27,315 nucleotides of DNA from IMG/VR virus record IMGVR_UViG_3300032298_000906, positions 1 to 27,315 of that record; one strand, given 5' to 3'. Position numbers and translations under genes: made by a program. The DNA comes from a virus. How positions within the stretch are numbered: position 1 is the stretch's first letter; each line of letters begins with the position of its first letter. Shown piece by piece: positions 1 to 18,228 of the stretch. The notes beneath the pieces were generated by a model. It did not search any database and had not been told where the DNA came from. It was given only the letters and a program-made list of their open reading frames with translations.

Positions 1-2493
1 ATGCATTGTATTCAAACGCCAATCTGCTTGATGCTTCATTATTTCAACAAGTTTAGATACTGTAGTTGCTTCTGTTGCTGTAGCATATGGTTCGTTGATA
101 TCTTGTGATTCTGTATTTCCTGATGTAGGAGTTACTATAGTCCCTTGAATAATATCCTGAACTATAGAGTCAACATGTTCAAATGTTGTTACAGTATAAT
201 ACGAATCAGAAATATTAACTAGGCTTTCTGCTGGTCCTATATTAGTTGAGCGAAGTTCATCGCCTACAATTGCACATTCTGCAGGAACAATAATAGGTAA
301 TGTTTCTCTAAATATACCAGTTTTTACATTGATTGTATCATTTGGTACAACTCTATCAGGAATAGTTGATGAGTCACCGGCTGTAAGAGCAGATGTAACT
401 ATACCAATTAATGCATTAACAGTAGTAATAATTCCTGATTCAGCAGTTAATGTAGCATCAACAAATTGTCCAACAGGACTTGGTACGCTGTTTAAAGTTT
501 GATAGCTTTGTGCAGGAGTATCTTGATTAAGAATATCCTCAATTAATGATGCCATAAAATTAAAAGCGGCAACATCGTTGTCAGCTTCTGTAGCAAGATT
601 TAGATAAGTTCCTGTTCCGTTATTTTCAGCAATAGTTGAATATGGACCTTCGTCGAGTGCATTTACATAAGTTTGAGCAGCAGCTCTCATCTTTAAGTTA
701 CCGCCGTGACCAATATCATAGATAATACGATCTATTAAAAATCCTACGTCACGTTCACACTTTGCTGAATTGTAAGTAAAGCCATTCCAAATTCCAGACC
801 CGCCGGCATTTGCTATTTGATAAGTTATCCATTCTATAACTTCTTTTTGTATGAACGGACGATTTAATTCAAGTATCTTTTGAGCTTGTGGGTTTCTAGG
901 ACCTTTTAATACTTGCTCTGTAGCATAACGAACGGTTTTCCAAGGTTTATCAAGTGTTATTCCCCATCCTTCTACAGGATCACCGTCTGTACCAGTTTCA
1001 GCAACATAATAAACGGCTGTTATAACTCCCCAATACTTCCATGAAGGAATACTATTACTAACAGTTAATACTTGTCCTTCGGTTCCCCTTGCTAACCTTG
1101 TAGGTCCTGCACCGTCATAATAAACGATATCACCTACAGTAGTCATTACTTCGTTTTCGTTACCCGAAGCTAAAAGATTCCAATAAGTTCCATTTACATC
1201 AACATCAGGTACATTAGTTGCAATTGTAGAACCGTCGTCACCTTCACTGACATGACCTTGAACGCATATATAAGAATTAGAACCTCTCTTAACAGCATCA
1301 CCTAATTCATATTCTGTATCGTCGGTCCAAGTACCTCTCCATTTGATACCATAGTTTAATCTTGACCAATAAGTTGGATTGGGTGGCTGTTGATTAACAT
1401 TATCTGCTATAGCAACATAGGTGTAACCATTAAGTCTAACAATATCACCGATTTTATAATCCATATTTGAGGAATCTTCTCCCCAATCTCCTAAAAATCT
1501 AAATCCTGTTGTAAAAATATCCCAATCGTCGGAATTTGATGTTGGCTTTTGAGCAAGATTATTAGTAGTTTTACTAACATAAACATATCCGCCATAGGTA
1601 ACAATATCACCGTGTTGGTAACTTGTAAAGGGACTCCAAGAATTTTCAAATTCTAATGCTTCAACAAATTGATCAAATTTTGCTTCATCAAATGTAGCAG
1701 TCGATGTATGATTATTTGTACAAATCCATATGCCTGAACCATATTTTACAACATCGTTAACTTTATATCTTGTTCCTGCATTCCATGTTTGCTTATATTC
1801 TATGCCTTTATTAAAATAATCCCATTTACTTTGATCATTTTCTAAACCAAGTGCAACTGTTGCGGCAGATGTATGTCCTGTATTACACACATATGTTTGA
1901 CCGCCATGTCTAACAATATCATTTCTTTTATATCTTGTATCAGGAAGCCAATCAGATTTCCATTCGAATGTTTCTGCATATAAATCCCATTTACTTTGAT
2001 CATTTTCTAAACCAAATGCTGCGGTTGAGGCAGATGTATGATGTGTATTACAAATATAAGTTATTCCGCCATATCTTACAACATCACTAACTTTATATCT
2101 AGTATCAGTTCCCCAGACACCTTTCCAATCAGTTCCTTCAGCATATAGATCCCATTTAGTTTGATTGGATTCTAGACCTAAAGTTTCTGTAGCACCGGAT
2201 GTATGTCCTTCATTACAAATATACAAGTATCCGCCGTATCTTACAATATCATTTACTTTGTAATATGTAGCAGTTAGCCAAGGACCTTTCCACTCGTGTC
2301 CTTCGTTCATTTGATTCCAGCGAGCAGGAACATTATCTAAATCAGTGTAAAAATCACTATCAGCAGTATGTCCAATTACACAAACAAAAATTGACCCACC
2401 ATAACGGACAATATCGTCCTTATAGTAAGTTGTAGAAGCAACCCATGCTCCCTTCCATATAAATCTAATTCTACCTAATTTAAACTCAGCCAT
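1..2493 (-). CDS. Giant fibre-like virion protein, N-terminal 831 residues (runs off the window)
   Basis: The frame is open without a stop from the ATG at 2493 to base 1, so the 3' end lies outside the window. A Shine-Dalgarno (CGGAG) precedes the ATG and a late-promoter-like AATAAATA lies 20 bases upstream. Residues 1 to about 444 hold eight modules of about 50 residues with the pattern W..x5-Y.x2-DIVRYGG..Y.C..xHTS, reminiscent of small carbohydrate-binding modules of the CBM5/12 type, but that is only a resemblance. From about residue 493 a pectin-lyase-like beta-helix begins (VYYVAETGTD, later NVKTGIFRETLPIIVP). It is interrupted at about 540 to 720 by a helical insertion containing CERDVGFLIDRIIYDIGHGG. 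A second similar insertion seems to start near the window edge (IVQDIIQGTIVTPTSGN). It is a collinear paralogue of the gene starting at 7240. The likely role is a tail fibre or other adhesin on the virion surface; this is inferred from architecture and context. Confidence 0.85.
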   Translation of the reverse strand, partial: MAEFKLGRIRFIWKGAWVASTTYYKDDIVRYGGSIFVCVIGHTADSDFYTDLDNVPARWNQMNEGHEWKGPWLTATYYKVNDIVRYGGYLYICNEGHTSGATETLGLESNQTKWDLYAEGTDWKGVWGTDTRYKVSDVVRYGGITYICNTHHTSASTAAFGLENDQSKWDLYAETFEWKSDWLPDTRYKRNDIVRHGGQTYVCNTGHTSAATVALGLENDQSKWDYFNKGIEYKQTWNAGTRYKVNDVVKYGSGIWICTNNHTSTATFDEAKFDQFVEALEFENSWSPFTSYQHGDIVTYGGYVYVSKTTNNLAQKPTSNSDDWDIFTTGFRFLGDWGEDSSNMDYKIGDIVRLNGYTYVAIADNVNQQPPNPTYWSRLNYGIKWRGTWTDDTEYELGDAVKRGSNSYICVQGHVSEGDDGSTIATNVPDVDVNGTYWNLLASGNENEVMTTVGDIVYYDGAGPTRLARGTEGQVLTVSNSIPSWKYWGVITAVYYVAETGTDGDPVEGWGITLDKPWKTVRYATEQVLKGPRNPQAQKILELNRPFIQKEVIEWITYQIANAGGSGIWNGFTYNSAKCERDVGFLIDRIIYDIGHGGNLKMRAAAQTYVNALDEGPYSTIAENNGTGTYLNLATEADNDVAAFNFMASLIEDILNQDTPAQSYQTLNSVPSPVGQFVDATLTAESGIITTVNALIGIVTSALTAGDSSTIPDRVVPNDTINVKTGIFRETLPIIVPAECAIVGDELRSTNIGPAESLVNISDSYYTVTTFEHVDSIVQDIIQGTIVTPTSGNTESQDINEPYATATEATTVSKLVEIMKHQADWRLNTMH
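1160..2490 (-). repeat. Eight tandem W/Y-DIV-YGG protein modules
   Basis: Within the partial giant gene, eight units of about 50 codons follow each other. Each starts with an aromatic residue-K/R-G-x-W, followed by Y-x-x-x-D-I/V-V, an YGG turn and Y-I/V-C. Units 2 to 5 end in HTS-type loops; units 6 and 7 lack the Cys and the HTS. Units 2, 3 and 4 are close to each other at the protein level, including a shared GLExxQxKWD segment. Confidence 0.85.
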
Positions 2494-2513
2494 TTTCTGC
2501 TCCGACGATAATG

Positions 2514-2521
2514 TATTTATT
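2514..2521 (-). promoter_or_regulatory. T4-type late promoter candidate (AATAAATA)
   Basis: On the minus strand the sequence reads AATAAATA, seven of eight matches to the T4 late consensus TATAAATA. It lies in the 40-base gap between two giant genes. With the usual T4 spacing, RNA would start near 2508 and give a leader of about 15 bases carrying the CGGAG ribosome site. Confidence 0.6.
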
Positions 2522-2533
2522 TTAATTTAAATG

Positions 2534-5500
2534 TTAAAATTCCGTATCATTACTAAAAGAGTCTATAAAATAGGTCATTGCTAGTAAAGATCCTGTAAAT
2601 CCTTTTGTCATATTAACTTTTCTGTTAATAATTACTTCATCACCTGTTGTAGTTCCTATAACTTGTGGTCCCACACGAACTACACCTGCTGTTAATAGGC
2701 TACAAAGTGCATTTGCACCACCTCCAGAAATACTTGCTTCTAAGTATCCTTTAATAGCCCTTTGTGTAGGAATAATATTATTAGAATCAGCAGTAAATGT
2801 ACTATCTTTTGAAAATTCTCTAATAATTACGCCTGTACCACCTACGCTAACGGCACCTAGAGAAATTTCACTTAATCCAGTTAATTCAAATAAATCAGCA
2901 CTAATTGTAACAGTACCAGTTGACTGTTCAACTTTAAATAGTTCTCCAACACGGAAATTACCATTTTGATCGGTTGCTGTATAGAATACACGCCCGCCGC
3001 CTCTTTCAAAAACTTCATTTTCTGGTGATAATAGTGCAGGAGGAGTACCTGGATAATTTGAACTTTCAAAATTACCTGTACCTATTTCGAGAAAATCATG
3101 ACCTGTTAGACGTACTTGACTGTATTGCTGTCTAATAGTAATATCAGCACCGTGCTCCGGCGATTCCTCAATACCTATTTCAGGTGCTATTCTTAATTTT
3201 GCTTGATAATTTCCTGATGACCCACCTAGCTGTTCTATGGTAATAATCTTATAAGTAAGATCATTAATTTCTTCAATATTTAAGTTATCACCAGGTCCTG
3301 GTAATACTGTTAAATTATTAATAATTATATATCTTCCAGTTTGATAATTATCAGAATACCCATCACCTGATATTTCTACTGTTGTGGATGGTGATAGATA
3401 TCCAGTTCCTGGATTAAGTATTACAGGATTTGCTAGGACACCTGATCCCTTTCTAACACGAAGATATACGTCATTTACATTATTAGGATCAATAACTGTT
3501 ACTGTTGGAGTTAAACTATATCCGCTACCTGGCTCGATAATATTAACTTTGGAAATTCTTCCTGATGTAACATAAGCGCGACCGATAGTTCTTGCTCCTG
3601 TTAAAATAGAAGCAGCATTAGATGTACCTGATGCAATAGCTACCCAAATTCCACTATTAGAAGGATTTCCAAAAGCTAACCCTGTCCATGTTTGTGAAGA
3701 TGGTAATGTAAATGCTGTACTATCATCACCTGTATTTCTCCAAAGATAACCATCATTAGAATAAGCTACAGTGTTTGATGATGCGACAGCTAAAAATACA
3801 CCCTGTCCGTAAGCAACTTTACTCCAATTTGCTGAAGTAGTCATTTGACTTATTATCCATGTTACTCCTGTAAATGAATATGCACAAATAATACTTCCAG
3901 AAGCTACAGCAACAAATCTGCCGTTTCCGTAAGTAACCGATGACCATGATATCGAAGACGGTAAAGTAGCTGATGACCATGTTACTCCGTCATCTATTGA
4001 GTATGCAGCATTAGTTCCTCCACTTGCAATTGCAACCCAGACGCCGCTGCCGTATGCTATTGACGACCATGTAGTTGATGTTGGTAAAGCGCCACCATTT
4101 GACCACGATAATCCTGTAATAGATGTTGCCGTAGATGTTCCTCCAGTAGCAATAGCTATAAAAGTATTATTTCCGTAAGCAACGTCGATCCAATTAGCAG
4201 TTGAACTTATTATTCCACTAGTCCAAGTTTGCCCACCATTTGACGATATTGCTGCTTGGTTGCTTCCTTGTTTAACAGCAAGATGTTTACTGTTTCCATA
4301 TGTTATTGCAGTCCAAGTTCCTGAACTTGGTAAAGTTCCCCCAATATTCCATGTTGTTCCGTTAGAAGAAATAGATGTCTCGTCTGTTCCTGTAGCAATA
4401 GCAACAAAATTTCCATCACCATAAGCTACGTCAGTCCACGACGATGATGCTGACAACGATCTACTATTTGAAGCAAATCCAGGAAAATCAAAAATTACTC
4501 TAGGTTCTATTTTATATACTGTAGTTGTGTTTAAAGCATTTTCAATAGCATAGCCAGGATAAAAATTTTCCCAGCCTCCTTGACCGTCTAATTCTCTAAA
4601 TACGGTAGCAACTTTAGAAGAATCATCATATGAACTAATATAACCATATTGTCCTGCCCCGGTGCCGCCTGTTAAAACAATACGCATTCCTTCGTATTCT
4701 TCGGGGGTCCCGTCGTCTGATGCTGCTAATATAACTGATAATTGATCTCCACCTTGAGCATTATTTGTAATAGTAAAATATTCTGTACCACCTGCTGCTG
4801 ACGAATCTCCCGGAGTATAAACTCTTACTTGATATACGGCATTATCTCTAATTTCTTCGTGTGATAACGATGCATTTAATCCTGCTCCGTTAACTGAATA
4901 CGTAGTAAATGTTGCTGTGCTATAATTCTGCCCAGCATTATTATATTCAAGTCTCATTAGTTCGCCGACTTTAGTAATTACACTATCAACTAATGCTTCT
5001 TGACTTCTATTGTTTACTGTAGCAGTTATAGCAGTTTCAGCTAAATCGTATCCTTCTGCAACACAGCCATATGTTCCGTATGATGAGTTTCCGTTTGTTG
5101 CACGAATTTTACCTCCATTATCTGACAGATATCCAATATGTCCGTAATAAGAGAATACAGAAACAAGTTCTGAAAGTCCTGAATTAGTAACCCAAGCACC
5201 AATACCGTCACTTAAAACTTGAGTAAAGTCGTTAGCTACAATAGAAGTATTACCTCCGTCGTGCAATGCACCGTCAACTTTTAATCCAATACAAGCCGTT
5301 CCAAATGTTGTAACATTTTGTATATAAGGTGATCTTGTTGAAATCCAAACTGATGAGTCTGATGTTCCGGATCCTGGGTCAAGACTTACATAAGCACCTG
5401 CTGTGGGTCTTCTTGTTCCGTATATGTTTGGTGTTCCTAATGTTCCGCTTAATCCTTTTAAGGTCATGTTACGAATACCTGTAGCATTTCTCACATAGAA

Positions 5501-7240
5501 CATGTTTTCAGTTTCGTACCCAGGTGCAGCAACAATAGTAGTTCCTCTTAATTCGTCTCCTACTAATGCAACTCCTTCAGGAATACTAATAGGAAGTTCC
5601 TCATAATATGTTCCAGTTTTTATGAAAATTGTTGCTGGACCAGAAATACTTTCACAGGCATGTTTAACAGTAGCCCACGGAGAATCTAAAGATTCTCCGT
5701 GATTATTATCGTCGCCTTCGACAGCAACATAGTAAACTTTATTAATTTTATTAAAATCATCCCAATTAACTTCACCGCTGAATATTTTTAAGGCTTGTGA
5801 TTGATCACCAATTGATCTTCTAATCGATCTATTATCTAGTGTTATAGAATTAAGACCGAATGTTTTAATATCACCGGGTTCAGCAAGAACATTTGTTTGA
5901 TTACCTTGAACAAATTCTTCCCAATATGTATTTGATAAATCTACATCTGGTCTATTAGTGCCGCTTGATGCATTATGATTTAATATACATTTGTATGCTG
6001 TACTAATATAGGTAATTACGTCACCATATAAATATTCCGTTCCATTAATCCATCTACCTCTATATCTCTCTCCAGGAATAAGTAATTCCCAATAAGATAT
6101 ATCGTTAGGATTAACTCCGTTTGAGTCTTGAATAGCAACATATACCATGCCGCCTCTACGAATAACATCACCTACTTTATAATCTTGAGCTGTAGAGTCA
6201 TCTCCCCAATCACCTCTTATTCTAAAGTTTGTAGTTAACAATTCCCAATCGTCTGTTTGTACTGACGGTATTTGTCCTACATTATTTGTTAGGGCAAAAT
6301 AATTGTATCCACCATAATTTACTACATCACCTTTTTGATAGATAGTATGTACATCCCAGGTATTATCGAATTCAAATCCAGGAAGATATACTTCCCATTT
6401 AGATTCGTCAAAAATATCTGTTTGAGTAGTATGAAATTCTCTGCATATCCATAATGATGCTCCATACTTAACAATATCATTTAATTTATATCTATAAAAA
6501 TTAGAATCAAAAGTTCCTTTATATTCTATACCTTCATAGAGAGTTGTCCATTTAGACTGGTCGTCTTCTAATCCTGCCCCTTCAAACGCATGTGATACGT
6601 GTGCTGTATTACAAATATAAACAATTCCACCGTATTTAATGATATCATTTAATCTGTATCTTGTTCCTAATTGCCAATTACTTCGCCATAATTCTGTATT
6701 AGTGATTTGTTGCCATTTAGAAAAATCATCTTCCAATCCTAAAAGAGTAGTATCAGCAGAAACGTGATTAAACAAACATTTATAAATTACACCACCATAT
6801 TTTACAATATCATTAGTAACATAAGATGTACTAGTAGACCAATTATATCTCCAATTATTAGTTGATGTATAAGTTATCCAATTTGATGAATCATCATCAA
6901 AATCTATCTCACTACTTACTGATGTATGACTTTCTATACAGATATAAACAGTACCATTCTTTTTAATTAAATTACCTATTTGATAAAAGGTATCAACAGT
7001 CCAATCGCCCGTCCATTCGTACCCATCAAACATTAATTCCCAATATGGATCCGGTTGCGGTGGAATTTGAGTATCAACAGCTTCAAAGTCAGTATAAAAA
7101 TTAGCACTCGATGTATGTGTTTTTAAAGCAACATAAGTCTTACCACCATAACGAACTACATCGTCTTTAATGTAATTATAGCCATTTGCCCAATTTCCAA
7201 TCCATCTAAATCTAATTCTAGCTATTTTAAATTCAGCCAT
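2534..7240 (-). CDS. Giant fibre-like virion protein with beta-helix and Asp-box beta-propeller (1568 aa)
   Basis: Domain order: residues 1 to 445, eight W/Y-DIV-YGG modules, collinear with those of the neighbouring partial gene; about 502 to 913, a pectin-lyase-like beta-helix (VYYVAVEGDD, TIFIKTGTYYEELPISIP, GDELRGTTIV); about 932 to 1225, seven repeats of W..VAYGxGxFVAIASG followed by SxDxGxTW Asp-box motifs, which fits a seven-bladed propeller; then Gly-rich PGSGY motifs. Near the C-terminus is a FRVGELF module and the ending IIPTQRAIKGYL..SISGGG, a motif I recall from long structural proteins of marine T4-like phages. The start is set by ATG after a weak GGGGT site and a perfect late promoter 27 bases upstream. 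The likely role is a tail-fibre or baseplate-attached adhesin; glycan binding by the propeller is inference. No enzymatic residues can be claimed. Confidence 0.88.
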   Translation of the reverse strand: MAEFKIARIRFRWIGNWANGYNYIKDDVVRYGGKTYVALKTHTSSANFYTDFEAVDTQIPPQPDPYWELMFDGYEWTGDWTVDTFYQIGNLIKKNGTVYICIESHTSVSSEIDFDDDSSNWITYTSTNNWRYNWSTSTSYVTNDIVKYGGVIYKCLFNHVSADTTLLGLEDDFSKWQQITNTELWRSNWQLGTRYRLNDIIKYGGIVYICNTAHVSHAFEGAGLEDDQSKWTTLYEGIEYKGTFDSNFYRYKLNDIVKYGASLWICREFHTTQTDIFDESKWEVYLPGFEFDNTWDVHTIYQKGDVVNYGGYNYFALTNNVGQIPSVQTDDWELLTTNFRIRGDWGDDSTAQDYKVGDVIRRGGMVYVAIQDSNGVNPNDISYWELLIPGERYRGRWINGTEYLYGDVITYISTAYKCILNHNASSGTNRPDVDLSNTYWEEFVQGNQTNVLAEPGDIKTFGLNSITLDNRSIRRSIGDQSQALKIFSGEVNWDDFNKINKVYYVAVEGDDNNHGESLDSPWATVKHACESISGPATIFIKTGTYYEELPISIPEGVALVGDELRGTTIVAAPGYETENMFYVRNATGIRNMTLKGLSGTLGTPNIYGTRRPTAGAYVSLDPGSGTSDSSVWISTRSPYIQNVTTFGTACIGLKVDGALHDGGNTSIVANDFTQVLSDGIGAWVTNSGLSELVSVFSYYGHIGYLSDNGGKIRATNGNSSYGTYGCVAEGYDLAETAITATVNNRSQEALVDSVITKVGELMRLEYNNAGQNYSTATFTTYSVNGAGLNASLSHEEIRDNAVYQVRVYTPGDSSAAGGTEYFTITNNAQGGDQLSVILAASDDGTPEEYEGMRIVLTGGTGAGQYGYISSYDDSSKVATVFRELDGQGGWENFYPGYAIENALNTTTVYKIEPRVIFDFPGFASNSRSLSASSSWTDVAYGDGNFVAIATGTDETSISSNGTTWNIGGTLPSSGTWTAITYGNSKHLAVKQGSNQAAISSNGGQTWTSGIISSTANWIDVAYGNNTFIAIATGGTSTATSITGLSWSNGGALPTSTTWSSIAYGSGVWVAIASGGTNAAYSIDDGVTWSSATLPSSISWSSVTYGNGRFVAVASGSIICAYSFTGVTWIISQMTTSANWSKVAYGQGVFLAVASSNTVAYSNDGYLWRNTGDDSTAFTLPSSQTWTGLAFGNPSNSGIWVAIASGTSNAASILTGARTIGRAYVTSGRISKVNIIEPGSGYSLTPTVTVIDPNNVNDVYLRVRKGSGVLANPVILNPGTGYLSPSTTVEISGDGYSDNYQTGRYIIINNLTVLPGPGDNLNIEEINDLTYKIITIEQLGGSSGNYQAKLRIAPEIGIEESPEHGADITIRQQYSQVRLTGHDFLEIGTGNFESSNYPGTPPALLSPENEVFERGGGRVFYTATDQNGNFRVGELFKVEQSTGTVTISADLFELTGLSEISLGAVSVGGTGVIIREFSKDSTFTADSNNIIPTQRAIKGYLEASISGGGANALCSLLTAGVVRVGPQVIGTTTGDEVIINRKVNMTKGFTGSLLAMTYFIDSFSNDTEF
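3570..4440 (-). repeat. Seven Asp-box (BNR-like) repeats, predicted seven-bladed beta-propeller
   Basis: Residues about 932 to 1225 of the 1568-residue protein contain seven units of about 41 to 46 residues. Each opens with W-x-x-V/I-A-Y-G and F/W-V/I-A-I/V-A-S-G. Most contain a variant of the Asp-box S-x-D/N-x-G-x-T-W, for example SIDDGVTW, SSNGGQTW and SNDGYLW. The last unit is degenerate. Asp-boxes are typical turns in sialidase-type and related propellers. Confidence 0.75.
5903..7237 (-). repeat. Eight tandem W/Y-DIV-YGG protein modules
   Basis: This is the second set of eight modules, at residues 1 to 445 of the 1568-residue protein. Unit by unit it matches the set in the gene starting at 2493: unit 5 begins YKxT, unit 6 begins F-[DE]-N-x-W, unit 7 begins RGDW or LGDW with an extra DDSxxxDYK segment, and unit 8 ends in an extended PDVD..YW loop. 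The two sets end at almost the same residue number. Confidence 0.85.
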
Positions 7241-7266: not shown

Positions 7267-7274
7267 TATTTATA
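7267..7274 (-). promoter_or_regulatory. T4-type late promoter (perfect TATAAATA)
   Basis: The minus strand reads TATAAATA, an exact match to the T4 late -10 octamer, followed by TTGAG. It overlaps the stop codon of the upstream 117-residue gene and lies 27 bases before the ATG at 7240. With T4 spacing, RNA would start near 7261. Confidence 0.75.
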
Positions 7275-7623
7275 TACCAGTAGGATATGTATATCCAGAG
7301 TTAACTCTTGCAACTAATTGTCCATCATCGTCAATATAGTAATAGATAGCTCTATCATCCCAGCGATATTGTTCATATTTTAAATTATCAAAAACAACAC
7401 CGTGATAAACATCTCGTCCTTCGTAAAAATCGACTCCAACTACAAAGTCATCGTAGTTTTCTTCAGTAGGTCCTAGATTATTAATGTTAATACTATCATT
7501 ACCTTTAAGTTGATCAACTCTACCTAGATATAATTCACCGTCATCTGTTCTACGTAATCCGTAGAAATATCTAGGATTGTCTCCTAACAAGCCATCTGGT
7601 TGTGTACCTATGTAATAAGTCAT
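7270..7623 (-). CDS. Small structural protein of the marine T4-like type (117 aa)
   Basis: A complete ORF with an AAGGA ribosome site before the ATG, spaced ten bases after the stop of the preceding 109-residue gene. It begins MTYYIGTQPDGLLGDNPRYF and is rich in Tyr and Asp, with no transmembrane segment or signal peptide. I recall proteins with this start (GTQPDGLLGDNPRYFYGLRR) from marine myoviruses, where they are uncharacterised. Its position between two pairs of giant fibre genes suggests a virion component or a fibre assembly partner, but no fold or activity can be read from the sequence. The stop codon overlaps the late promoter of the next gene. Confidence 0.8.
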   Translation of the reverse strand: MTYYIGTQPDGLLGDNPRYFYGLRRTDDGELYLGRVDQLKGNDSININNLGPTEENYDDFVVGVDFYEGRDVYHGVVFDNLKYEQYRWDDRAIYYYIDDDGQLVARVNSGYTYPTGI

Positions 7624-7633
7624 TTATTTTTCC

Positions 7634-7963
7634 TTATAATATTTCAACGTATGATACAATTGCATCAATAGAATCACTAACGCTAGACGACACATACAAT
7701 TCATTTGACGGGGCTAAAATTAGCTTTTCACCTCCGTTTACAACTCTTAAACTGCTTTGTGGACCTAACAATACATCTTTAATATAATACCCTGTAACAC
7801 TAGTATCGTCTTTAACTGTTACACTAACTGTTAGTGGGTCTTCTGTTAAGTTTGCTAGGCTTAATCCTATAACAGTAATTCTAGATGCAACAGTAGTTTG
7901 TGCTACTCTTACAGGAACTGTTCCTATTTCTTTTATTACTGAATTTTTAAAAAATGACGCCAT
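7634..7963 (-). CDS. Small beta-rich virion protein (109 aa)
   Basis: Complete ORF with AGGATAAG before the ATG, starting four bases after the stop of the 1922-codon giant gene, so probably co-translated with it. The protein alternates hydrophobic beta strands (TVPVRVAQTTV, LTVSVTVKDD) and ends in a SSSVSDSIDAIVSYVEIL-type strand pair. The layout resembles the 115-residue protein at 18724 to 19071: both have a short N-terminal strand, a middle polar loop, a P/G-x-G/S-x-x-L/F step near residue 70 and a final I-x-T/Y-V-x-I/L ending. They may be distant paralogues with a beta-sandwich fold. Function unknown; a fibre-associated structural protein is the most natural guess. Confidence 0.78.
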   Translation of the reverse strand: MASFFKNSVIKEIGTVPVRVAQTTVASRITVIGLSLANLTEDPLTVSVTVKDDTSVTGYYIKDVLLGPQSSLRVVNGGEKLILAPSNELYVSSSVSDSIDAIVSYVEIL

Positions 7964-7967: not shown

Positions 7968-10900
7968 TTATCCTAAAGTTAATACTGTTGTAATTGCTAT
8001 ATCTTCTGCTTGTGCTACTGTTACACCAGATGATGTACCAGCAGCCGATTGCCAAGTAATTCCATCAAATATTTCAAGTCTATTATCATCTGTGTTATAT
8101 CTTGTAAATCCTATAAATGATGCAGGACTTACTGTAACATCTGGTCTTTGAGCAGCATCGCCAACCGGTACTCTAAATCCAGTAGTACCTGCAATCTTAA
8201 AATAACCTGTACCTGTATGAGTTAATTCTGTAACACCATCTGTAACGGTATTTGTGATAACATTATTTTTGAAGGAAAAATCTTCAAAAATAACTTTGCC
8301 TGTTCCTGCTGCTGTAATATCTATTGACTGATTATTAATAGATCCAATAGTATTTCCGTCGATGAATAAATCATCAACTTCTACTCTAACAGCGTTAAGT
8401 CTTGTTGCTGTCATATCAGCAATTTGAACACCGTTAGCATAGAAATAGAAAGTATTATCATTTGCACCAGGAGTTGATTCTGCTACAAGATATGTGTTTT
8501 GATCAACATCATAGAGACCGTTTATTACTCTCCAATAAGTTCCGTCATAACCTTCATAATTATTATTAGAAGTATTATAACGAATCATACCTGCTAAAGG
8601 AGTACCTGGTCTCTCACCGGTAGTTCCTCTTGGTATTCTTATTGCTTGTGTTGTATTAATATCAACAATACCAGTTCCACTTGGTTGCATAGTAATATTA
8701 GTACCACTAGCAACTGATATAATATTTTGATTTACAGTAATATCTTCAAGTTTGATTCCACCAGTACCATTTGCACGAAGTTCTAAATCTGCATTAGAAA
8801 CAGTTGTTCTAATAACATTTGTATTAATTTCAATGTCACTTATAAATGTATTTTCAGCATAAAGAGTTTTCCATCTTTTAGCAGCAGAACCCAAATTATA
8901 AGTTACTGGTAAATTAGGAATAATATCACTGTTGATTTCAGCAGCAAAACTTATATTGTCTGTATTTTCGTTACCTACTGTAATATTACCACCGATAGTT
9001 ACATTACCTGTAACATTCAAATCACCAGTAATATTAGTATCACCTAAAATGTCAAGAGTAGTTGCAGGATCTAATATAAGATTAGTTGTTCCGTTAGTTG
9101 AAATAATATTTTCATTTATATCAACTTGCTCAACTCTAATTGCACCAGTACCATTTGCTTTTAATTCGAGATTAGCATTTGACTCTGTAGTTGTTATTAT
9201 ATTAGTATCAATATAAATGTTGTCAATAAAAGCACTTGATAAGTGTGCTATTTTCCAATTCTTTGTTGGAGAACCTAAATTATAAGTTGCTGTAAAATTA
9301 GGCTCAATGTTAGAATTAACTCTAGCATTGAATACTATATTATCTGTATTATCCGTACCTAAATCTAAATTACCATCGAAACTTGAATTACCAGTAACAT
9401 GTAAATCACCATTTATATTTGTAGTAGATGCAGTAATATCGAGTGTAGTAGCTGGTTGAATTAATAAATTATCTGTGCCGTTTGTTTTTATAAGATTTTC
9501 ATTGATATCAATCTTTTCAATTCTAATAGCACCAGTACCGTTAGCTCTTAATTCAAGATTAGCATTTGATGCAACAGTTGTTATTATATTTGTATCAATA
9601 TAGATATCGTCAATATAAGCACTTGCTAACCAAGCATTTCTCCATGCTTTAGTGCTTGATCCTAAATCATATGTAGCAGCGTATGTTGGAACAATATTTG
9701 AACTTGCTCTAGCATTGAATACAACATTGTCTGAACTATCTGATCCTAATACTACATTAGAATCAAGTGAAACATTTCCAGTTACGTGTAAATCACCATT
9801 TACATTAGTAGTTGAAGCAGTAATATCTAATGTAGTTGCTGGTTGAATTAGTAGATTATTACCAACAGTGTAAATTAAATTTTCATTTATATAAGTTTGT
9901 TCAAGTTGAATTGATCCTGTACCGTTAGCACGAAGTTCTAAATTACTATTTGAAACAACAGTTTGTATAATATTAGTGTCAATTAAGATGTCATCAATGT
10001 ATGCGCTAGATAGATAAGCAGTTTTCCATGCCTTTGAAGATGACCCTAAATCATATGCACTTGTTATAGAAGGAATAATATCTGTATTAACTCTAGCATT
10101 GAATATAACATTGTCTGTTGCATCTGTACCTAATGTAGTATTTGTATCTATTGAAACATTGCCTGTAACATGCATTGTTCCATTTACATTAGTAGTTGAT
10201 GCTGTTATATCTAAAGTAGTAGCTGGAGTTATTTGAATATTACCAGAATCCGTAGAAATTACATTTTGATTTACTCTGATATCTTCAACTAAAATTGATC
10301 CAGTACCATTTGCTCTTAATTCTAAATCTGCATTAGAAATAGTTGTTCTAATATAGTTTGTGCTAATTTCAATGTCGCTGATATGAGCAGTTCTTACCCA
10401 AAGGTCTTTCCATTGTAAACTATCAGATCCAATATTATATGTTGCTGGAAGATTAGGTATAATATCACTATCAATACCTGCAACAAATTGAACACTATCA
10501 GTAGTTTGATCACCTAATGTAATATTACCACCAATAGTTACATTTCCTACAACATCTAAACTTCCTGATATGTTTACATCACTTAAAAGGTTTATATTAT
10601 TATCAGCAGCGGTAATATTGATTTCGTTTGTAAGACTTTGAATAGTATTACCGCTAATTCTTATATCACCTGTTTCTACTTTTGTAGGTGTTATGATAGT
10701 GACATTTGATCCATCAGTTAAAGTTAGTCCAGTAGATCCAATAATGTTAATAATACTATTAGTAAATTGTACAGCACCTGTTTGTTGATTTACATAAAAT
10801 AAATCACCTACTCTAAAATCACCCTTGTGATCAACAGATGAATAATAGATATTAGCACCGTTTAATTCAACAATTTCGTTTGCTTGTATAACTTGTAAAG

Positions 10901-13736
10901 GATCGTTTTCTTGGCTTCCACCTAGTCCAATATATGCAAGGTTCTGTCCGATGAGGTACATAATAACACCTTCACCGTCTCCATATATTCCGTAATCACC
11001 GTATACCGCAGCAGACCCAATTGATCTAACTTCTGCACCAAAGTCTGCATAATCTACTAAAGTAAATTGTGTAGCAGTAGCACCGCTTGGAGTAAAACGA
11101 ATATCTTGAACTAATGTGCTATCATCTTCATATGTTGTTGATCCATTTGGACCATCAAAGTGTAAAAGTAAAACAGTATAAGTATCACTACCATATGCAG
11201 AAGTTGGAACAACAAATGAACTAGTATATCTACCAATACCTTTAGACACACGGAAGTCATCAATATAGGCATTTAAATGTGCAGTACTGTTCCAATAAGC
11301 ACCGATGTTTAAAGGTTTTGCAATATAATTATTAGAGTCTGTATAAGTTGTAGTTTCAACTGTTCCGTTGATAAACATTCTTGTAACACCACTTACTCTT
11401 GAAATAGCAATGTTATGCCAAGCATTATCTGATAAAGGTGCTGCCGCTGTTATTTGGAAAGCACCCTGTACATATAATTTTACAAATCCAGCGCTCGATA
11501 CTTCTACTAATAATGCTGCTTGAGCCACAGCAGAAGTTCTCATATCGAATATACTTTGAGTTAGTGCTGAAGCAACAAAGTAAACCCAAAACTCAACAGT
11601 AAAGTCACCTGTACCAAATGCAAAATCATCGTTAGCAGCAATAGTTATTTCGTCACTTGTTGCTGTCACAAACTGACCACTTGATCCACCAAACTTTGAT
11701 TGAGCTGTAGAAATCTGTGCACCACCACTAGGTGTAACAGATTTTCCTACACGACTACTATATTCAACAAATCCACTTTCTTTACCGTTTATATAAATTT
11801 TAGATCCGCTTGTAGATGCAATAGTTCCGGAACCTAATAATGTAACTCCGTCTTCTGCATAATATTCAATAGTATCACCTACATTATAGACACCTGTAAC
11901 ACCATCTACAGCAAGAATAGTTTGTCCTGCACCACCTTTACCAGTTGTACCACTATAAGCATAAAGTCCTTTTGTTGCCCAGTATGTAAAGCAATTAAGC
12001 CATTCAACACGAACACCTTCCGTCATTACAATATTATCAACACCTGGACAAAGGAAAGTAACAGAATGGAAAAGCATTGATGCTTCATTAGTAGTAGGAT
12101 CTGCTACGCTACCATCAATAAATGCCCCTCGACCAGCATCATGCTGATCAAAACCTCTAGGATCTGTTGGATAATATTGCCAGAACCCTATACCTGCTTT
12201 AATAGTTTCTTCATTACCGTCATGTTGTATATCATATATTAAAGCATCAAGAATAATTCCTAAATCTCTTTCAGCTTTTGTTTGATCATATGTTCCCCAG
12301 AAACCTGGATAGTTAATATTAACCCAAGCAACCATTTCCGCTTTTAAGAAATCTATATTACTTGTTATAAGAGCAGCAGCATTTAATTTAACAGTATCAG
12401 TTGTTAATGCGCTGTTAGGTGTTATAGTAGGTAGACTTGTTCCACTTGCTCCATTGCCTATAATATAGATTACATCATCAATTAATGCTTGTAGAGAAGA
12501 AGCAGTTGTTCCGTCACTTGGATTTGTTAAATCAGTTATTCGTGTCTCGGAGTTTCCTAAAGATGGAGTTATAACACCGTTAGTTACAATCTCATCTATA
12601 ATATCTTTAATTCTTAAAATACTTCCATCATTTGCTGCTTGATAAGTTGCAACTGCTAAACTAGTAGGAGTACCAAACGATATAACAGAACAGTTTCTAA
12701 TATATGGTGATCTTAATGTAACTTTGATATTATTATCAAATCGGAAAGCATGACCTGTATTAGCTATAGAATTGTAAAAATGTCCTTTAACGGTTATATC
12801 TTCTATAGTGGATTCACCGTTTAATAAAAATACATCTTGATCTCTTGTACTAGGTCTAGGAGTTATTATAGTGTTTCTTAAACTTGAGCCTTTTACTGTA
12901 ACACCTGCTGGTACAGTTAAAGGACATATTTCTTCATATGTTCCTGGATAGATATAAACAGTATCACCGTCTACTGCTACAGATAGAGCATGTTCAATAC
13001 TAGCAAAGCAATCATTTTGATGATAACCACCATTTGTGTCATCACCGTTTGAAGAAACATATATTATATTACCTTGAATTTGAGAAACATCTACACCGTC
13101 AACAATAACATTAGTTGCTAAAACATTTGTAGCAATAAAGTTATTTGTCCAAATACTGTTCCAACGATTAGTTGCACTACCTAAATTGTAATAATCTGTA
13201 ATATTTGGAATAATGTCACTATTAACATCAGCATTAAAAACAATATTATCAGTATTTTGATCACCGAGAACAATACTGCCATCAGCAGTAATATTTCCAG
13301 TAGCATGAATGCTACCGTCAACAAACATATCTGAATAAACTTTAAGAGTTCCAGTTCCGCTAACTCTAATTTCCATATCAGCATTTGTAGTGTTTGTAGT
13401 AATGAAATTATCTTGAATGTCTATTTGATCGATAGTTAATCTATTTTGATAGATAATACCATCACTTGCTGCAATTAGGTTAAGTGTAGGAACATTACTA
13501 GAAATAGTATTACCTGTGATGGTAATATTATCAATGTCTAATTGATTATCTACTTGTAAGTATGTTGTTCTTGTTGTACCGTCTACATGTAAATCGTGGG
13601 TTGGAGCATTTGTGTTTATTCCGACACGTAAATTATTAACATCTAGATATAAAAGATCGTTCTCAAAAGCCAGATCAACCCCGTCGCGGAGAAGGTTTGC
13701 TTTTAAGAGCGGTCCTGAAATACGACCTACGGACAT
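7968..13736 (-). CDS. Giant tail-fibre-like protein with beta-helix, LamG-like insertion and tandem repeats (1922 aa)
   Basis: The N-terminus (MSVGRISGPLLKANLLRDG, then DLLYLDVNN) matches the gene starting at 18228. The order is: N-terminal repeat-type module (about residues 100 to 210); pectin-lyase-like beta-helix from about 225 (YVSSNGDDTNGGYHQND, VYIYPGTYEEICPLTVPAG); a helical insertion at about 359 to 523 (KAERDLGIILDALIYDIQHD); an insertion at about 595 to 897 containing a concanavalin/LamG-like domain (FTVEFWVYF, WHNIAISRV, YIDDFRVSKG, LLLHFDG); a FRVGDLF module; modules of about 128 residues centred on PATTLDIT; and two C-terminal IRYNT/TRYNT tip modules. A GGGGAG ribosome site and a 90-base leader behind a late promoter set the start. 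The likely role is a virion adhesin or long tail-fibre subunit. Oligomer state and receptor are unknown. Confidence 0.88.
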   Translation of the reverse strand: MSVGRISGPLLKANLLRDGVDLAFENDLLYLDVNNLRVGINTNAPTHDLHVDGTTRTTYLQVDNQLDIDNITITGNTISSNVPTLNLIAASDGIIYQNRLTIDQIDIQDNFITTNTTNADMEIRVSGTGTLKVYSDMFVDGSIHATGNITADGSIVLGDQNTDNIVFNADVNSDIIPNITDYYNLGSATNRWNSIWTNNFIATNVLATNVIVDGVDVSQIQGNIIYVSSNGDDTNGGYHQNDCFASIEHALSVAVDGDTVYIYPGTYEEICPLTVPAGVTVKGSSLRNTIITPRPSTRDQDVFLLNGESTIEDITVKGHFYNSIANTGHAFRFDNNIKVTLRSPYIRNCSVISFGTPTSLAVATYQAANDGSILRIKDIIDEIVTNGVITPSLGNSETRITDLTNPSDGTTASSLQALIDDVIYIIGNGASGTSLPTITPNSALTTDTVKLNAAALITSNIDFLKAEMVAWVNINYPGFWGTYDQTKAERDLGIILDALIYDIQHDGNEETIKAGIGFWQYYPTDPRGFDQHDAGRGAFIDGSVADPTTNEASMLFHSVTFLCPGVDNIVMTEGVRVEWLNCFTYWATKGLYAYSGTTGKGGAGQTILAVDGVTGVYNVGDTIEYYAEDGVTLLGSGTIASTSGSKIYINGKESGFVEYSSRVGKSVTPSGGAQISTAQSKFGGSSGQFVTATSDEITIAANDDFAFGTGDFTVEFWVYFVASALTQSIFDMRTSAVAQAALLVEVSSAGFVKLYVQGAFQITAAAPLSDNAWHNIAISRVSGVTRMFINGTVETTTYTDSNNYIAKPLNIGAYWNSTAHLNAYIDDFRVSKGIGRYTSSFVVPTSAYGSDTYTVLLLHFDGPNGSTTYEDDSTLVQDIRFTPSGATATQFTLVDYADFGAEVRSIGSAAVYGDYGIYGDGEGVIMYLIGQNLAYIGLGGSQENDPLQVIQANEIVELNGANIYYSSVDHKGDFRVGDLFYVNQQTGAVQFTNSIINIIGSTGLTLTDGSNVTIITPTKVETGDIRISGNTIQSLTNEINITAADNNINLLSDVNISGSLDVVGNVTIGGNITLGDQTTDSVQFVAGIDSDIIPNLPATYNIGSDSLQWKDLWVRTAHISDIEISTNYIRTTISNADLELRANGTGSILVEDIRVNQNVISTDSGNIQITPATTLDITASTTNVNGTMHVTGNVSIDTNTTLGTDATDNVIFNARVNTDIIPSITSAYDLGSSSKAWKTAYLSSAYIDDILIDTNIIQTVVSNSNLELRANGTGSIQLEQTYINENLIYTVGNNLLIQPATTLDITASTTNVNGDLHVTGNVSLDSNVVLGSDSSDNVVFNARASSNIVPTYAATYDLGSSTKAWRNAWLASAYIDDIYIDTNIITTVASNANLELRANGTGAIRIEKIDINENLIKTNGTDNLLIQPATTLDITASTTNINGDLHVTGNSSFDGNLDLGTDNTDNIVFNARVNSNIEPNFTATYNLGSPTKNWKIAHLSSAFIDNIYIDTNIITTTESNANLELKANGTGAIRVEQVDINENIISTNGTTNLILDPATTLDILGDTNITGDLNVTGNVTIGGNITVGNENTDNISFAAEINSDIIPNLPVTYNLGSAAKRWKTLYAENTFISDIEINTNVIRTTVSNADLELRANGTGGIKLEDITVNQNIISVASGTNITMQPSGTGIVDINTTQAIRIPRGTTGERPGTPLAGMIRYNTSNNNYEGYDGTYWRVINGLYDVDQNTYLVAESTPGANDNTFYFYANGVQIADMTATRLNAVRVEVDDLFIDGNTIGSINNQSIDITAAGTGKVIFEDFSFKNNVITNTVTDGVTELTHTGTGYFKIAGTTGFRVPVGDAAQRPDVTVSPASFIGFTRYNTDDNRLEIFDGITWQSAAGTSSGVTVAQAEDIAITTVLTLG
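8640..10690 (-). repeat. Tandem fibre repeats of about 384 to 387 bp
   Basis: Within the 1922-codon gene the PATTLDIT core recurs near 9058, 9445, 9832 and 10216, giving spacings of 387, 387 and 384 bases. Each unit carries SNxNLELRANGTG, then ENxI, PATTLDIT, NGDLHVTGN, TDN-x-x-FNA, SNIxP, YNLGS-x-x-xWK and a DTNII-type end. Less similar modules flank the array on both sides. Confidence 0.88.
11160..11710 (-). other. LamG/concanavalin A-like domain inside the 1922-aa protein
   Basis: Residues about 680 to 858 show the usual strand markers of a LamG-like jelly roll: F-T-V-E-F-W-V-Y early, D-N-A-W-H-N-I-A-I-S-R in the middle, M-F-I-N-G-T-V, then A-Y-I-D-D-F-R-V-S-K and a final L-L-H-F-D-G. The domain is absent from the paralogue at 13852 to 18228. 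The fold is recognised by pattern only; ligand binding is not shown. Confidence 0.75.
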
Positions 13737-13840: not shown

Positions 13841-13851
13841 CAATGGTGAAT

Positions 13852-16800
13852 TTATCCAAGGATTAGGGTATAGATTGTATTAATCTCATCAATCTGTGAT
13901 AAGCTCGCAAAGCCTCCTGCACTTGCTGTTGCAAGGCCCCATGCTCCATTAATATACATTTCTAAATAATCTTGATCAGTACTCCAACGAGTTGTACCTT
14001 CTTCTGGAGTTCCAGGTCTTTCAGCATCAGTACCTACTGGCATAATAAAACCGAGCGAGCCTTTTATTTCTAAATAACCTTTAGAAGTATGAGCAATAGT
14101 GAGACTTTGATTAACAACATTGTTTGTAATAACATTATCATCGATTTCAAATCCTTCAATATTCATAACATTATTTGCATCAGGATCAAACACAAAATTA
14201 ATATTATTAGTAGACCATATATTGTTTTGAATATTAAAACTATCAAGTTGTAAACCGTTAAGCCACAATTTAGATGTATCCACATATGCTGACGTTGTTC
14301 CTTGCGAACTAAAAGTAATAATATTTGAAGTAGGCTCAACTCTTGCATAAGTTAATCTATCTGAAGAGTAAACACCCCCAAATGTAACTCTTGCAGTTGT
14401 AAAACCTCCAAATAAACTATCTGATGTATTAAAACGCATATCACCAAAAGTCATATTAGCAATTAGTCTATCACTTGTAGTACCTCTTGCTAATCTTAAA
14501 GAAGTGTTTGTATTAATATCTAAAATACTTGTTCCTGTTAAATCTACTTGGATATTTTGATTGTTAATAGCACCTTCAATAGTATTATTACGGAATCTTA
14601 AATCTTCTGTTCTAACACCACCTCCGGAATTTCCTTGTAAAATAAGATCTAAATTGCCACTAGTTGTTCTAATATAATTTGTATTAATTTCTATATTGCT
14701 TACGAATTCATTTTCTAGCCAAATAGTTTTCCATCGTTTTGCTGCTGATCCTATATTGTAAGTTATATCAGCATCTGGAATTAAATCACTATTAATATCA
14801 GCAAGAAATACAACATCGTCTGTAGTAGCATTACCAAAAGTTATAGTTCCTTGCCAATCAAAATCACCACTAATTGCAACACTACCGGTTACATTTGTTG
14901 TTCCTAAAATATCCAATGTAGTAGCAGGATCTAATATAAGATTAGTTGTTCCGTTAGTTAGAATTGTATTTTCATTTATATCAACTCTTTCTAACCTAAC
15001 GGCTCCTGTACCGTTTGCTTTAAGTTCGAGATTAAGATTACTTACTGTAGTTCTAATATAGTTGTCATTGATTTCTATATCATCAAGTAAAATATTACCT
15101 ACATATAAGTTCCATCCTTGTTGACTACTACCTAATGCATATGTGTCATTATATTGAGGAATAATATCTGTATTTGTATCTGCAAAGAATCTTACAGTAC
15201 TTGAACTTGATGCTCCGATAGTAATATCAGAATCTAAATACAAGTTCTGTGTTATACGCAAATTACCGTTAAGTGTTGTATTTCCGGTTATGTCGAGTGT
15301 TGTAGCAGGTTCTATTTTTAAATTAGTACCTACGGTATAGATTAAGTTTTCATTAAAATATGTCTTTTCAAACTGTACAGAACCTGTACCAGAAGCTTTT
15401 AATTCTAAATTTAGATTACTAGTGGTTGTTTGAATATAGTTGTCATTAATCTCTATTTCATCTAGTAAAATCTTACCAGTATATAAATTCCAACTTCTAA
15501 CACTATCACCTAAATCATAAACAGAACTTAATTGTGGCTCGATATTTGAATTTACTGTAGTCCATATTACAATATTATCAGTAAAAGCATTTCCAAAAGT
15601 AGTATCAGAATCTAAAGTTACATTGTTAGTTACATGTAACATGCCGTTAACATTTGTAGTTGATGCTGTAATATCTAATGTAGTAGCAGGTTCTATTTTT
15701 AAATTTTCACCAACTGTATAAATTAGATTTTCGTTGAAATAAGTTCTTTCTGTTTTTATAGATCCAACACCACTTGCACGAAGTTCTAAATTTAGATTAG
15801 TTGTTATAGTCTTAATATAATTGTCGTTTATTTCAATATCGTCTAATAAGATATTTCCAGTATGTAAATTATAACTTCTAACATTATCACCTAACGAATA
15901 TGTTTCATTATATTGAGGAATAATATCTGAATTTACACTTGCTACAAAGGACACTGTATCTAAAACACTATCTCCTATTGTAGTATCAGAATCTAAAACA
16001 AAGTTTTGAGTAACATGTAAATCGCCATTAAAAGTTGTATTACCTGTTATGTCAAGTGTAGTAGCAGGCTCAATTCTAATATTACCGTTATCAACTGTTA
16101 TAGTTCTTTGTTGTATACGAATGTCTTCAACTAAAACAGTTCCATTACCGTTAGTTCTTAATTCTAAATCAGCATTTGAAATTGTAGTTTTAATATAGTT
16201 TGTAAAGATTTCAATATCAGATAGTTCGGCTCGTCTAGTATAAAGATCTTTCCAATTTCTAGTAGGAGATCCGATATTATAAGTTACATTTACTTTAGGA
16301 TCTAAATTATCATCAACATCTGCATTAAAAGATACTGTGTCTGCAATTTGATTTCCTAATGTTAATGTTCCATTAATAGTGAGATTATTATCAATAAAAA
16401 GATCTTGCTGAAGAGAAAGATTTGTGTTAAGATTAATAATATTGTTAGCAGCAGAAAAATTTATTTCTCCAGATAATGATTGAATAATATCTCCACTAAT
16501 TCTTATATTACCAGTTTCTACTCTTGTTGGTTCAATATAAGTAACATCGTCACCATCTGTAAAAGTAAATCCAACTATAGATGTGGATGATAACGAAGTA
16601 ATATCTAAACTAGTTGTACCATTTTCTAAATCAACAAAGAAAGTATCACCTACTCTAAATGTTCCTCGCTGATCAAAACTAGTGTAATAAATTTTGCCAC
16701 TATTAAGTTCTACAGTTTCATTGGCTTGAATAACTTGAGTAACATCATTTTCTTGATCTTTGCCTGTACCTATATAAGCAAAGTTATGATTGATAAGATA

Positions 16801-18228
16801 CATGAGAGTATCTGCACCATCTGCTACAGCACCATAATTACCATAAATGTCTGCTGAGTTGATACTTCTAACTTCTGCTCCGTAACGGATAGTACTACCA
16901 TCTTGAGTTGTTCTACCTGTTCCTTGTAGTGCATAAAGCCCGCGATTTGCAAAGTAAGTAAATGAATCTAACCATTCAACTCTTACACCATTTATCATTG
17001 TGATAGTATCTACACCTGGAGTAATAAATGTTGCAGAATGAAAAAGCATTGCTGCTTCATTAGTCTGTGTATCTGCTACACTACCATCAATATAAGCACC
17101 TTTACCTGCATCACCTGTTAAGAATCCCCTTGGATCTGAAGGACTTGTTACCGAACCTTGTGTAATAATACTGACATTTTGAATGTACGGTGATCTAATA
17201 CTAACCTTAATACCTGGAGCAAATCTAAAAGCATAACCTTTATTATTGATACTATCAAAATTAAAGTTTTTAATTGTTAAGTCTTGTATCGTAGTTGCAT
17301 CGTTTAATAAGAAAACATCTTCACCACCTGACGCTGTGTCTGGTTGAATTATTGTATTTCTTATGTCAGCACCTTGGATTGTAACACCTGCAGGAACAAT
17401 CAAAGGCAGTAATTCATAATAAGTTCCTGGATATACAAAAATTGTATCTCCATATTGAGCATTAGCTATTGCTCTTTCAATACTTTCAAAAGGACCGTTT
17501 TGATGATCACCTACATTTCCGCTACTACCATAAACAGCAACATACCATGTCTTTCCCTGGCGTTGAGCAACATCAACTCCTGATCCTATAACTAATGCTT
17601 CGTCAATTGTAAGTATTGCACCATTTAATAATCCAGCATATGTATTATTCCAACGAAGTGTTCTAGAAAAATTTCCTAATACATAGATATTATCTAATGC
17701 AGGTATAATATCACTATTAACATCCGCTAATAGTGAAACATCGTCATTATAGTCTGTACCAAATATAATACTTCCATCTGCTGTAATATTACCTGTAGAA
17801 TGTAAATTACCGTCAATCCATACATTATTATCAACTTTAAGTTTTCCTAGTCCGTCTGGTCTTAATTCTAAATCTGCATTAGAATCCATTGTATAGATAA
17901 TATTATCGTCTATTTGAATTGTTCCAACACCTAATCGAGTAACATTAACATTATCTGCATTAAAATGAAGTGGTCCTATTAAAGAAGTTATAGTATTATT
18001 TTGAATCTCTACATCATATGCATTTACTCGATTGTCTACAATTATATCAGTTGTTCTTCCAAAATTATCTATGAATAAGTCTGTAAGAGGAGCACTAGAC
18101 TTAATACCTATTTTGTTATTATTAACATCGAGATATATAAGATCTGTTTCAAAAGCTAAATCTACTCCATCTCGCAAGAGATTATCTTTTAATAAGGCAC
18201 CAGAAATACGACCAATTTGTGTGGACAT
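13852..18228 (-). CDS. Giant tail-fibre-like protein with beta-helix and tandem repeats (1458 aa)
   Basis: The N-terminus reads GRISGALLKDNLLRDG and then DLIYLDVNN, a module shared with the 1922-residue paralogue. It continues with an N-terminal repeat-type module, a pectin-lyase-like beta-helix (WYVAVYGSSGNVGDHQNG, FVYPGTYYELLPLIVPAG, DVFLLNDATTIQDLTIKN), a FRVGDTF module at about residues 510 to 540, modules of about 127 residues with PATTLDIT cores, and two C-terminal tip modules (ARGTTSDR..., PVGTDAERPGTPEEG). It lacks the LamG-like and helical insertions of its paralogue and may represent the simpler architecture. The ATG has a CGGAGAAG ribosome site, which lies in the 3' arm of a hairpin containing the late promoter. 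The likely role is a structural fibre or adhesin; the receptor is unknown. Confidence 0.88.
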   Translation of the reverse strand: MSTQIGRISGALLKDNLLRDGVDLAFETDLIYLDVNNNKIGIKSSAPLTDLFIDNFGRTTDIIVDNRVNAYDVEIQNNTITSLIGPLHFNADNVNVTRLGVGTIQIDDNIIYTMDSNADLELRPDGLGKLKVDNNVWIDGNLHSTGNITADGSIIFGTDYNDDVSLLADVNSDIIPALDNIYVLGNFSRTLRWNNTYAGLLNGAILTIDEALVIGSGVDVAQRQGKTWYVAVYGSSGNVGDHQNGPFESIERAIANAQYGDTIFVYPGTYYELLPLIVPAGVTIQGADIRNTIIQPDTASGGEDVFLLNDATTIQDLTIKNFNFDSINNKGYAFRFAPGIKVSIRSPYIQNVSIITQGSVTSPSDPRGFLTGDAGKGAYIDGSVADTQTNEAAMLFHSATFITPGVDTITMINGVRVEWLDSFTYFANRGLYALQGTGRTTQDGSTIRYGAEVRSINSADIYGNYGAVADGADTLMYLINHNFAYIGTGKDQENDVTQVIQANETVELNSGKIYYTSFDQRGTFRVGDTFFVDLENGTTSLDITSLSSTSIVGFTFTDGDDVTYIEPTRVETGNIRISGDIIQSLSGEINFSAANNIINLNTNLSLQQDLFIDNNLTINGTLTLGNQIADTVSFNADVDDNLDPKVNVTYNIGSPTRNWKDLYTRRAELSDIEIFTNYIKTTISNADLELRTNGNGTVLVEDIRIQQRTITVDNGNIRIEPATTLDITGNTTFNGDLHVTQNFVLDSDTTIGDSVLDTVSFVASVNSDIIPQYNETYSLGDNVRSYNLHTGNILLDDIEINDNYIKTITTNLNLELRASGVGSIKTERTYFNENLIYTVGENLKIEPATTLDITASTTNVNGMLHVTNNVTLDSDTTFGNAFTDNIVIWTTVNSNIEPQLSSVYDLGDSVRSWNLYTGKILLDEIEINDNYIQTTTSNLNLELKASGTGSVQFEKTYFNENLIYTVGTNLKIEPATTLDITGNTTLNGNLRITQNLYLDSDITIGASSSSTVRFFADTNTDIIPQYNDTYALGSSQQGWNLYVGNILLDDIEINDNYIRTTVSNLNLELKANGTGAVRLERVDINENTILTNGTTNLILDPATTLDILGTTNVTGSVAISGDFDWQGTITFGNATTDDVVFLADINSDLIPDADITYNIGSAAKRWKTIWLENEFVSNIEINTNYIRTTSGNLDLILQGNSGGGVRTEDLRFRNNTIEGAINNQNIQVDLTGTSILDINTNTSLRLARGTTSDRLIANMTFGDMRFNTSDSLFGGFTTARVTFGGVYSSDRLTYARVEPTSNIITFSSQGTTSAYVDTSKLWLNGLQLDSFNIQNNIWSTNNINFVFDPDANNVMNIEGFEIDDNVITNNVVNQSLTIAHTSKGYLEIKGSLGFIMPVGTDAERPGTPEEGTTRWSTDQDYLEMYINGAWGLATASAGGFASLSQIDEINTIYTLILG
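14500..16520 (-). repeat. Tandem fibre repeats of about 378 to 381 bp
   Basis: PATTLDI cores recur near 14918, 15299, 15680 and 16058, giving spacings of 381, 381 and 378 bases. Units match those of the 1922-codon gene in order. Part of one unit (14924 to 14959) is identical at DNA level over 36 bases to 9064 to 9099 of the paralogue, followed by further close similarity. Confidence 0.87.

Follow-up and report, generated by a model that had tools for sequence, protein, structure and literature searches.

Background

Fibres that bind receptors are commonly portrayed as homotrimers, each evolving on its own. The stretch of viral DNA analysed here (IMG/VR record IMGVR_UViG_3300032298_000906, positions 1 to 27,315; the whole stretch is called the window below) raises the question of whether this description suits a phage with four giant fibre genes that form two pairs of paralogues. 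The original prediction for this locus was that the pairs may provide several adhesins for different receptors on one virion, which is plausible. The comparison with related phages, all of it computational, goes beyond that prediction. The shafts of two of the four proteins keep matching lengths from phage to phage, which argues for parts of one matched structure and not for independent adhesins.

Gene content of the window

On this 27.3-kb virus contig, T4-like head genes occupy the right end of the window and the fibre genes follow, all on the minus strand. The head genes encode a portal protein, a PAAR-like protein, a protease, a coiled-coil protein at the usual place of the scaffold, and the major capsid protein. 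The PAAR-motif protein (26182-26457; PF05488, E=1.5e-6, above its cut-off) adjoins the portal gene, and a 191-aa protein of no assigned function (25344-25919; phrog_30607, E=3.5e-35) is also found among the head genes. The major capsid protein is closest to those of jumbo phages (Phosso, 73%; Vibrio phage 2.275.O, 71%; GAP32, 70%), and a megablast search with the head region found no near isolate. The GAP32/RaK2-like jumbo phages, with these closest capsid proteins (70-73%), also have a similar head gene order, but they lack the fibre cassette beside gp23. About ten mostly podovirus-like fibre or spike proteins have been reported for RaK2 (PMC3622015). Several contigs with the fibre cassette measure 198-364 kb, and some members of the group therefore probably have jumbo-size genomes.

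The four giant genes are A (13852..18228, 1458 aa), B (7968..13736, 1922 aa), C (2534..7240, 1568 aa), and D (1..2493), all on the minus strand, as are the features within them given below. D runs off the end of the window, which holds the first 831 of its 2376 aa. The complete gene is present in contig L064 (L064:10001-17131), which is 100% identical to window bases 1-12493. The genes lie where they had been predicted, and at 17.3 kb, or 63.5% of the window, they take up close to the two thirds that had been estimated. Between B and C are two small genes of 109 and 117 aa (7270..7963, minus strand), and this gap of about 730 bp is conserved. A small gene upstream of A (18257..18751, minus strand) is conserved in position; its middle matches the tip motif of A and B (BLASTP to B, E=9e-10). 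Part of a 496-aa protein (19082-20572) resembles the A/B repeat units (BLASTP against B, E=5e-4), so the repeat is present beyond the four fibre genes. Downstream of D, in L064:17818-20762, three related Cys/Gly-rich proteins of about 250 aa are encoded close together, with a tail-assembly-chaperone-like gene interleaved among them. Two of the three contain Gly_rich_2 (PF21722), and these proteins could be tip adhesins.

Architecture of the fibre proteins

A and B were predicted to be collinear paralogues, and BLASTP aligns them from end to end, at 48.5% identity over 1028 aa (E=0), 49.9% over 363 aa, and 64.7% over 85 aa. They have in common a GRISG...LLK.NLLRDGVDLAFE start, a beta-helix, an FRVGD module, and repeat units in an identical series. 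A begins with the GRISG N-terminal domain (residues 1-100, 17929..18228; placed in the tree of N-termini) and repeat unit n (residues 102-214, 17587..17925; unit comparison). These are followed by the beta-helix (residues 215-475, 16804..17586; AlphaFold and Foldseek), the FRVGD module (residues 476-556, 16561..16803; sequence comparison), shaft units p and 1-5 (residues 574-1265, 14434..16509), and the tip (residues 1266-1458, 13855..14433; tip tree). In B the GRISG domain (residues 1-103, 13428..13736; tree of N-termini) precedes a beta-helix in two parts (residues 219-359, 12660..13082, and residues 523-607, 11916..12170; both by BLASTP). Between the two parts is an inserted module that A lacks, called YDI here (residues 360-522, 12171..12659), whose predicted alpha-helical nature comes from its sequence only. 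A second insert missing from A carries a Laminin_G_3 lectin-like domain (residues 608-898, 11043..11915; Pfam E=3.6e-15). The FRVGD module (residues 926-1006, 10719..10961), shaft units p and 1-5 (residues 1024-1723, 8568..10667), and tip (residues 1724-1922, 7971..8567; tip tree) then follow as in A.

The AlphaFold model of A has a confident beta-helix at residues ~223-530 (pLDDT mostly >90), with pectin methylesterases, rhamnogalacturonan lyases, and phage fibres as Foldseek neighbours. The N-terminus and the start of the shaft were modelled at low confidence, as would be expected if these regions needed oligomerisation to fold. A search of 50,697 phage records found no GRISG N-terminus, only matches to unit-like and beta-helix parts, and a PDB sequence search gave CBM-type and chance matches only. 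PHROG profiles named baseplate wedge subunit match A and B mainly in the beta-helix, lectin, and FRVGD parts and not over the full length. The genes follow gp23 and do not lie among wedge genes, and annotation of A and B as the T4 gp7-type baseplate wedge initiator was set aside.

C and D had likewise been described as collinear paralogues with eight modules and then a beta-helix, and this description holds. The eight CBM-like modules are 41% identical over 548 aa (BLASTP, E=3e-135), and the full-length D from L064 is collinear with C to the C-terminus at 49-51% identity. Pfam assigns the modules to CBM_5_12 (D part in the window, E=1e-45 and 153.7 bits; C, E=3e-36 and 123.9 bits; Pfam cut-off, 26.2), which makes them CBM_5_12-like and putatively carbohydrate-binding. 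In C the modules (residues 9-445, 5906..7216; Pfam) are followed by the beta-helix (residues 498-735, 5036..5749; BLASTP and structure model), a seven-bladed propeller (residues 930-1212, 3605..4453), and the FRVGD module (residues 1370-1465, 2846..3133). The propeller is confident in the model of C, its nearest Foldseek neighbours are YCF48 and virginiamycin B lyase, and D carries one too. The part of D in the window holds its eight modules (residues 9-443, 1165..2469; Pfam) and the first alpha-helical (YDI) insert in its beta-helix (residues 530-715, 349..906). Compared with C, about 750 aa are inserted in the D beta-helix and about 90 aa in the first propeller blade. The beta-helix insert consists of several copies of a module, RDVGxxxDAxxYDxxxGGN, of which B has one copy; it looks alpha-helical, and a Pfam search found no family that covers it. 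The insertion point of the YDI module within the beta-helix varies between B and D (12171-12659 in B; 349-906 in D; residues 530-1305 of D in L064), and the module recurs in many related loci, with up to about eleven copies in one protein of contig L063. The lectin and alpha-helical inserts of B, the large inserts of D, and the propellers of C and D had been overlooked originally.

Ancestry of the four genes

A matches C in the beta-helix (BLASTP, E=6e-19) and in the FRVGD module (E=3e-8). Since these two parts are common to A/B and C/D, the four genes form a single family with two kinds of N-terminal arm. The predicted family is an ancient one, with the GRISG domain as the arm of A and B and the CBM-like modules as the arm of C and D.

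In a tree of 71 N-termini, all A sequences fall on one side of a branch and all B sequences on the other (88/61), and the tips of A and B also separate (95, starred). C and D are largely separate from each other and from a single cyanophage gene. The proposal of two tandem duplications followed by divergence is supported by these trees, and they add a date. The two members of each pair separate across the whole group, which rules out recent duplication and indicates that both duplications predate the radiation of this large uncultured T4-like group. Dozens of contigs keep the genes in the order A, B, two small genes, C, D. One exception was seen in the C/D tree, where the C gene of L073 and L075 falls among the D genes (100/100, starred), as if it had been replaced by a D copy.

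Shaft lengths of A and B

The lengths of A and B co-vary among 32 loci (Spearman 0.89). For a closer comparison, length was taken from FRVGD to the C-terminus in a first set of 28 non-redundant phages. It ranges from 297 to 1701 aa among these phages, nearly six-fold, and A and B follow each other closely (Pearson 0.92, Spearman 0.82, median difference 13.5 aa), with 18 of the 28 pairs within 25 aa compared to 2.5 expected by permutation. Independent contrasts gave r=0.88 (p=5e-10) for this length and r=-0.06 for the N-terminal part, which served as a control, and thinning of relatives left the match unchanged. Agreement through shared ancestry alone is ruled out by the contrasts together with the uncorrelated N-terminal part.

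The length hypothesis arose on these first loci, and new loci were fetched for repeat analysis. The new set was obtained by searches with A and B queries, and contigs overlapping the first set were filtered out solely on resemblance in the initial 100 aa of B; its 18 non-redundant long pairs gave Pearson 0.988 and Spearman 0.987. Twelve of them were within 25 aa (1.8 expected), and the N-terminal control gave r=0.41 (p=0.09). Among 80 complete adjacent A/B pairs, both genes have the beta-helix and FRVGD in 33, both lack them in 47, and none is mixed, although the short forms cluster in related phages, so the 47 short pairs do not represent 47 independent events (26 at 90% identity).

The absence of mixed pairs is difficult to reconcile with four independent adhesins for different receptors whose lengths agree incidentally, the reading first given to this locus. 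Nor does ancestry alone account for the length correlation, given the contrasts (r=0.88) and the lack of any correlation there for the N-terminal part of the same genes. The different decorations, namely the lectin insert in B and the CBM-like arms and propellers in C and D, would suit independent adhesins, as would the finding that extra length is mostly in A. Overall this reading is very unlikely. Separate A and B fibres could instead both be fitted to a third dimension, such as the length of the tail or the distance to the cell surface. The match does concern reach, from FRVGD to the C-terminus, and not total length, and fibres can fold back along the sheath, as in Anabaena phage A-1(L) (PMC10966104). 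However, A often exceeds B by 150-549 aa, and the length of C does not correlate with that of A or B, making such an external ruler quite unlikely. The CBM counts of C and D are often 7/7 or 8/8, with exceptions (9/7 in L075), in a narrow range and with patchy detection.

About a third of the A/B pairs differ by more than 25 aa, and nearly always A is the longer. This was so in all ten such cases of the first set (51-549 aa) and in five of six in the second, B being longer by 88 aa in the other. Unit counts are nevertheless equal (3/3) in five phages with a longer A, so the surplus length falls outside the units that were counted. Among the short forms, B hardly varies, at 349-356 aa (497-503 in one class), and A spans 353 to 758 aa.

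Descent of the repeat units

Collinear duplication had been expected to leave units that group by position across each pair. In module trees of both pairs this is true of the edge modules but not of the interior modules, which group within their own gene. Units n, p, and 5 of A and B pair by position (96/96, 99/100, and 100/99), and unit 4 finds its closest match in the other protein (65%). In contrast, units 1-3 group within their own protein, with units 1-3 of B 62-71% alike mutually and A and B units 45-57% alike. In C and D, positional pairing has starred support for modules 5 and 6 and 80-83% support for modules 7 and 8; module 1 pairs by identity only (45%), and modules 2-4 form a group inside D (58-64%). 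The pattern recurred when other phages were compared in sliding windows, most clearly in B. Edge units that pair by position and interior units that are closer within the gene are the mark of concerted evolution of tandem repeats, and they suggest that the ends retain positional descent while the interiors have been homogenised. Such a pattern would be expected if a collinear duplication were followed, within each gene, by homogenisation or re-amplification. In L021 the units, cut by HMM because cutting by regular expression gave poor units, are 69-79% alike within A, 90-94% within B, and 46-67% between A and B, and counts (7/7) and lengths (736/739) agree between the two. It appears that in at least this phage the interior repeats were amplified separately in A and in B.

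These results bear on whether repeat number could be transferred between A and B by gene conversion or unequal crossing-over, in which case the lengths would be coupled with no physical pairing. A and B lie next to each other as tandem paralogues, and their units are related. In L018, L041, and L061 the interior windows of A often have B units as their nearest matches, and units could be exchanged in the shaft interiors. In the two phages with the shortest shafts, L024 and L045, the sequence beyond FRVGD places A with B (99, starred), which may reflect exchange or a shared deletion. However, the gene ends hold their identity across the group, which rules out wholesale copying of one gene over the other. 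The interior units in L021 and in the window are closest within their own gene, and the lengths match within ~14 aa over 900 aa without matched sequence, unlike what the copying of whole blocks would predict. Recombination is thus an unlikely cause of the match.

Proposed assembly of A and B

Since A and B are matched in length, and are long or short together, we infer that they lie side by side in register. The explanation that we prefer, at a probability of about 0.55 for the whole, is that the virion incorporates A and B as a matched set. If the repeat number of one partner changed, selection would then favour the same change in the other. Of the two, B would be more conserved and carry lectin decorations near its base, and A would evolve faster, gaining extra domains towards its tip. 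C and D would be a second pair of surface-binding fibres. Lengths that match, as a hetero-oligomeric or side-by-side fibre should have them, were found across the phages, and the association of A with B is itself a prediction.

The matched set might take the form of two homotrimeric fibres packed together or of one mixed-chain fibre. If A and B chains co-folded in one fibre, for example as a trimer of A and B, their shafts would need equal repeat numbers; B-specific lectin inserts would sit near the base and A-specific domains towards the tip. To our knowledge, phage fibre shafts of known structure are homotrimers, and co-folding is a doubtful possibility.

Comparison with known systems

A precedent for a side-by-side arrangement of A and B is found in phage A-1(L), where the long and short tail fibres, gp34 and gp33, lie pairwise on one baseplate and measure 274 and 258 angstrom (PMC10966104). 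As proposed for A and B, these are two different fibres of similar length, but they are homotrimers of different folds and much shorter. Within the available parts of the open-access literature on heterotrimeric fibres and concerted fibre evolution, no length-matched paralogous fibres are reported, which is weak evidence.

The pair gp268 and gp269 of Synechococcus phage ACG-2014f, annotated as baseplate wedge subunits, are tandem paralogues that have a beta-helix, Laminin_G, and FRVGD, like B. They are ~40% identical to B over 550 aa and 45.5% identical to each other over 1496 aa. They differ from A and B in having no GRISG N-terminus and in their unequal lengths of 2518 and 1586 aa, and the final stretch of gp268 also occurs in a fibre of Synechococcus phage DSL-LC03. 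The same core with unequal lengths shows that the core alone does not enforce matching and that matching is not general. Three giant genes (2297, 2241, and ~3160 aa) follow one another in DSL-LC03 (L086), a freshwater cyanophage isolate. They contain beta-helix/FRVGD and YDI-type parts, and the phage is a possible experimental proxy.

C and D are predicted to be cyanophage tail fibres of the PHROG 9851 type. Both match the profile (C, E=2e-187; full D, E=9e-199), and their order of CBM-like modules, beta-helix, FRVGD, and C-terminus is that of the Kyanoviridae tail fiber protein (PSSM2_301 of P-SSM2, S-CAM1, Mosig EXVC030M). In contrast, the Kyanoviridae protein is encoded by one gene per phage in the four fetched, is ~35-38% identical over half of C, and falls outside the C and D group in the tree, and the propeller was not detected in it by C/D segments.

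Conclusions

A paralogous pair whose shafts have stayed equal through many length changes, in many metagenomes, is an evolutionary sign of matched assembly, and the matched lengths turn fibre architecture into a directly testable question. The fibres appear to be modular, acquiring lectin, helical, and propeller domains while their repeat arrays homogenise from within. Telling a conserved partner, B, from a variable one, A, may be useful for understanding the host range of uncultured aquatic phages.
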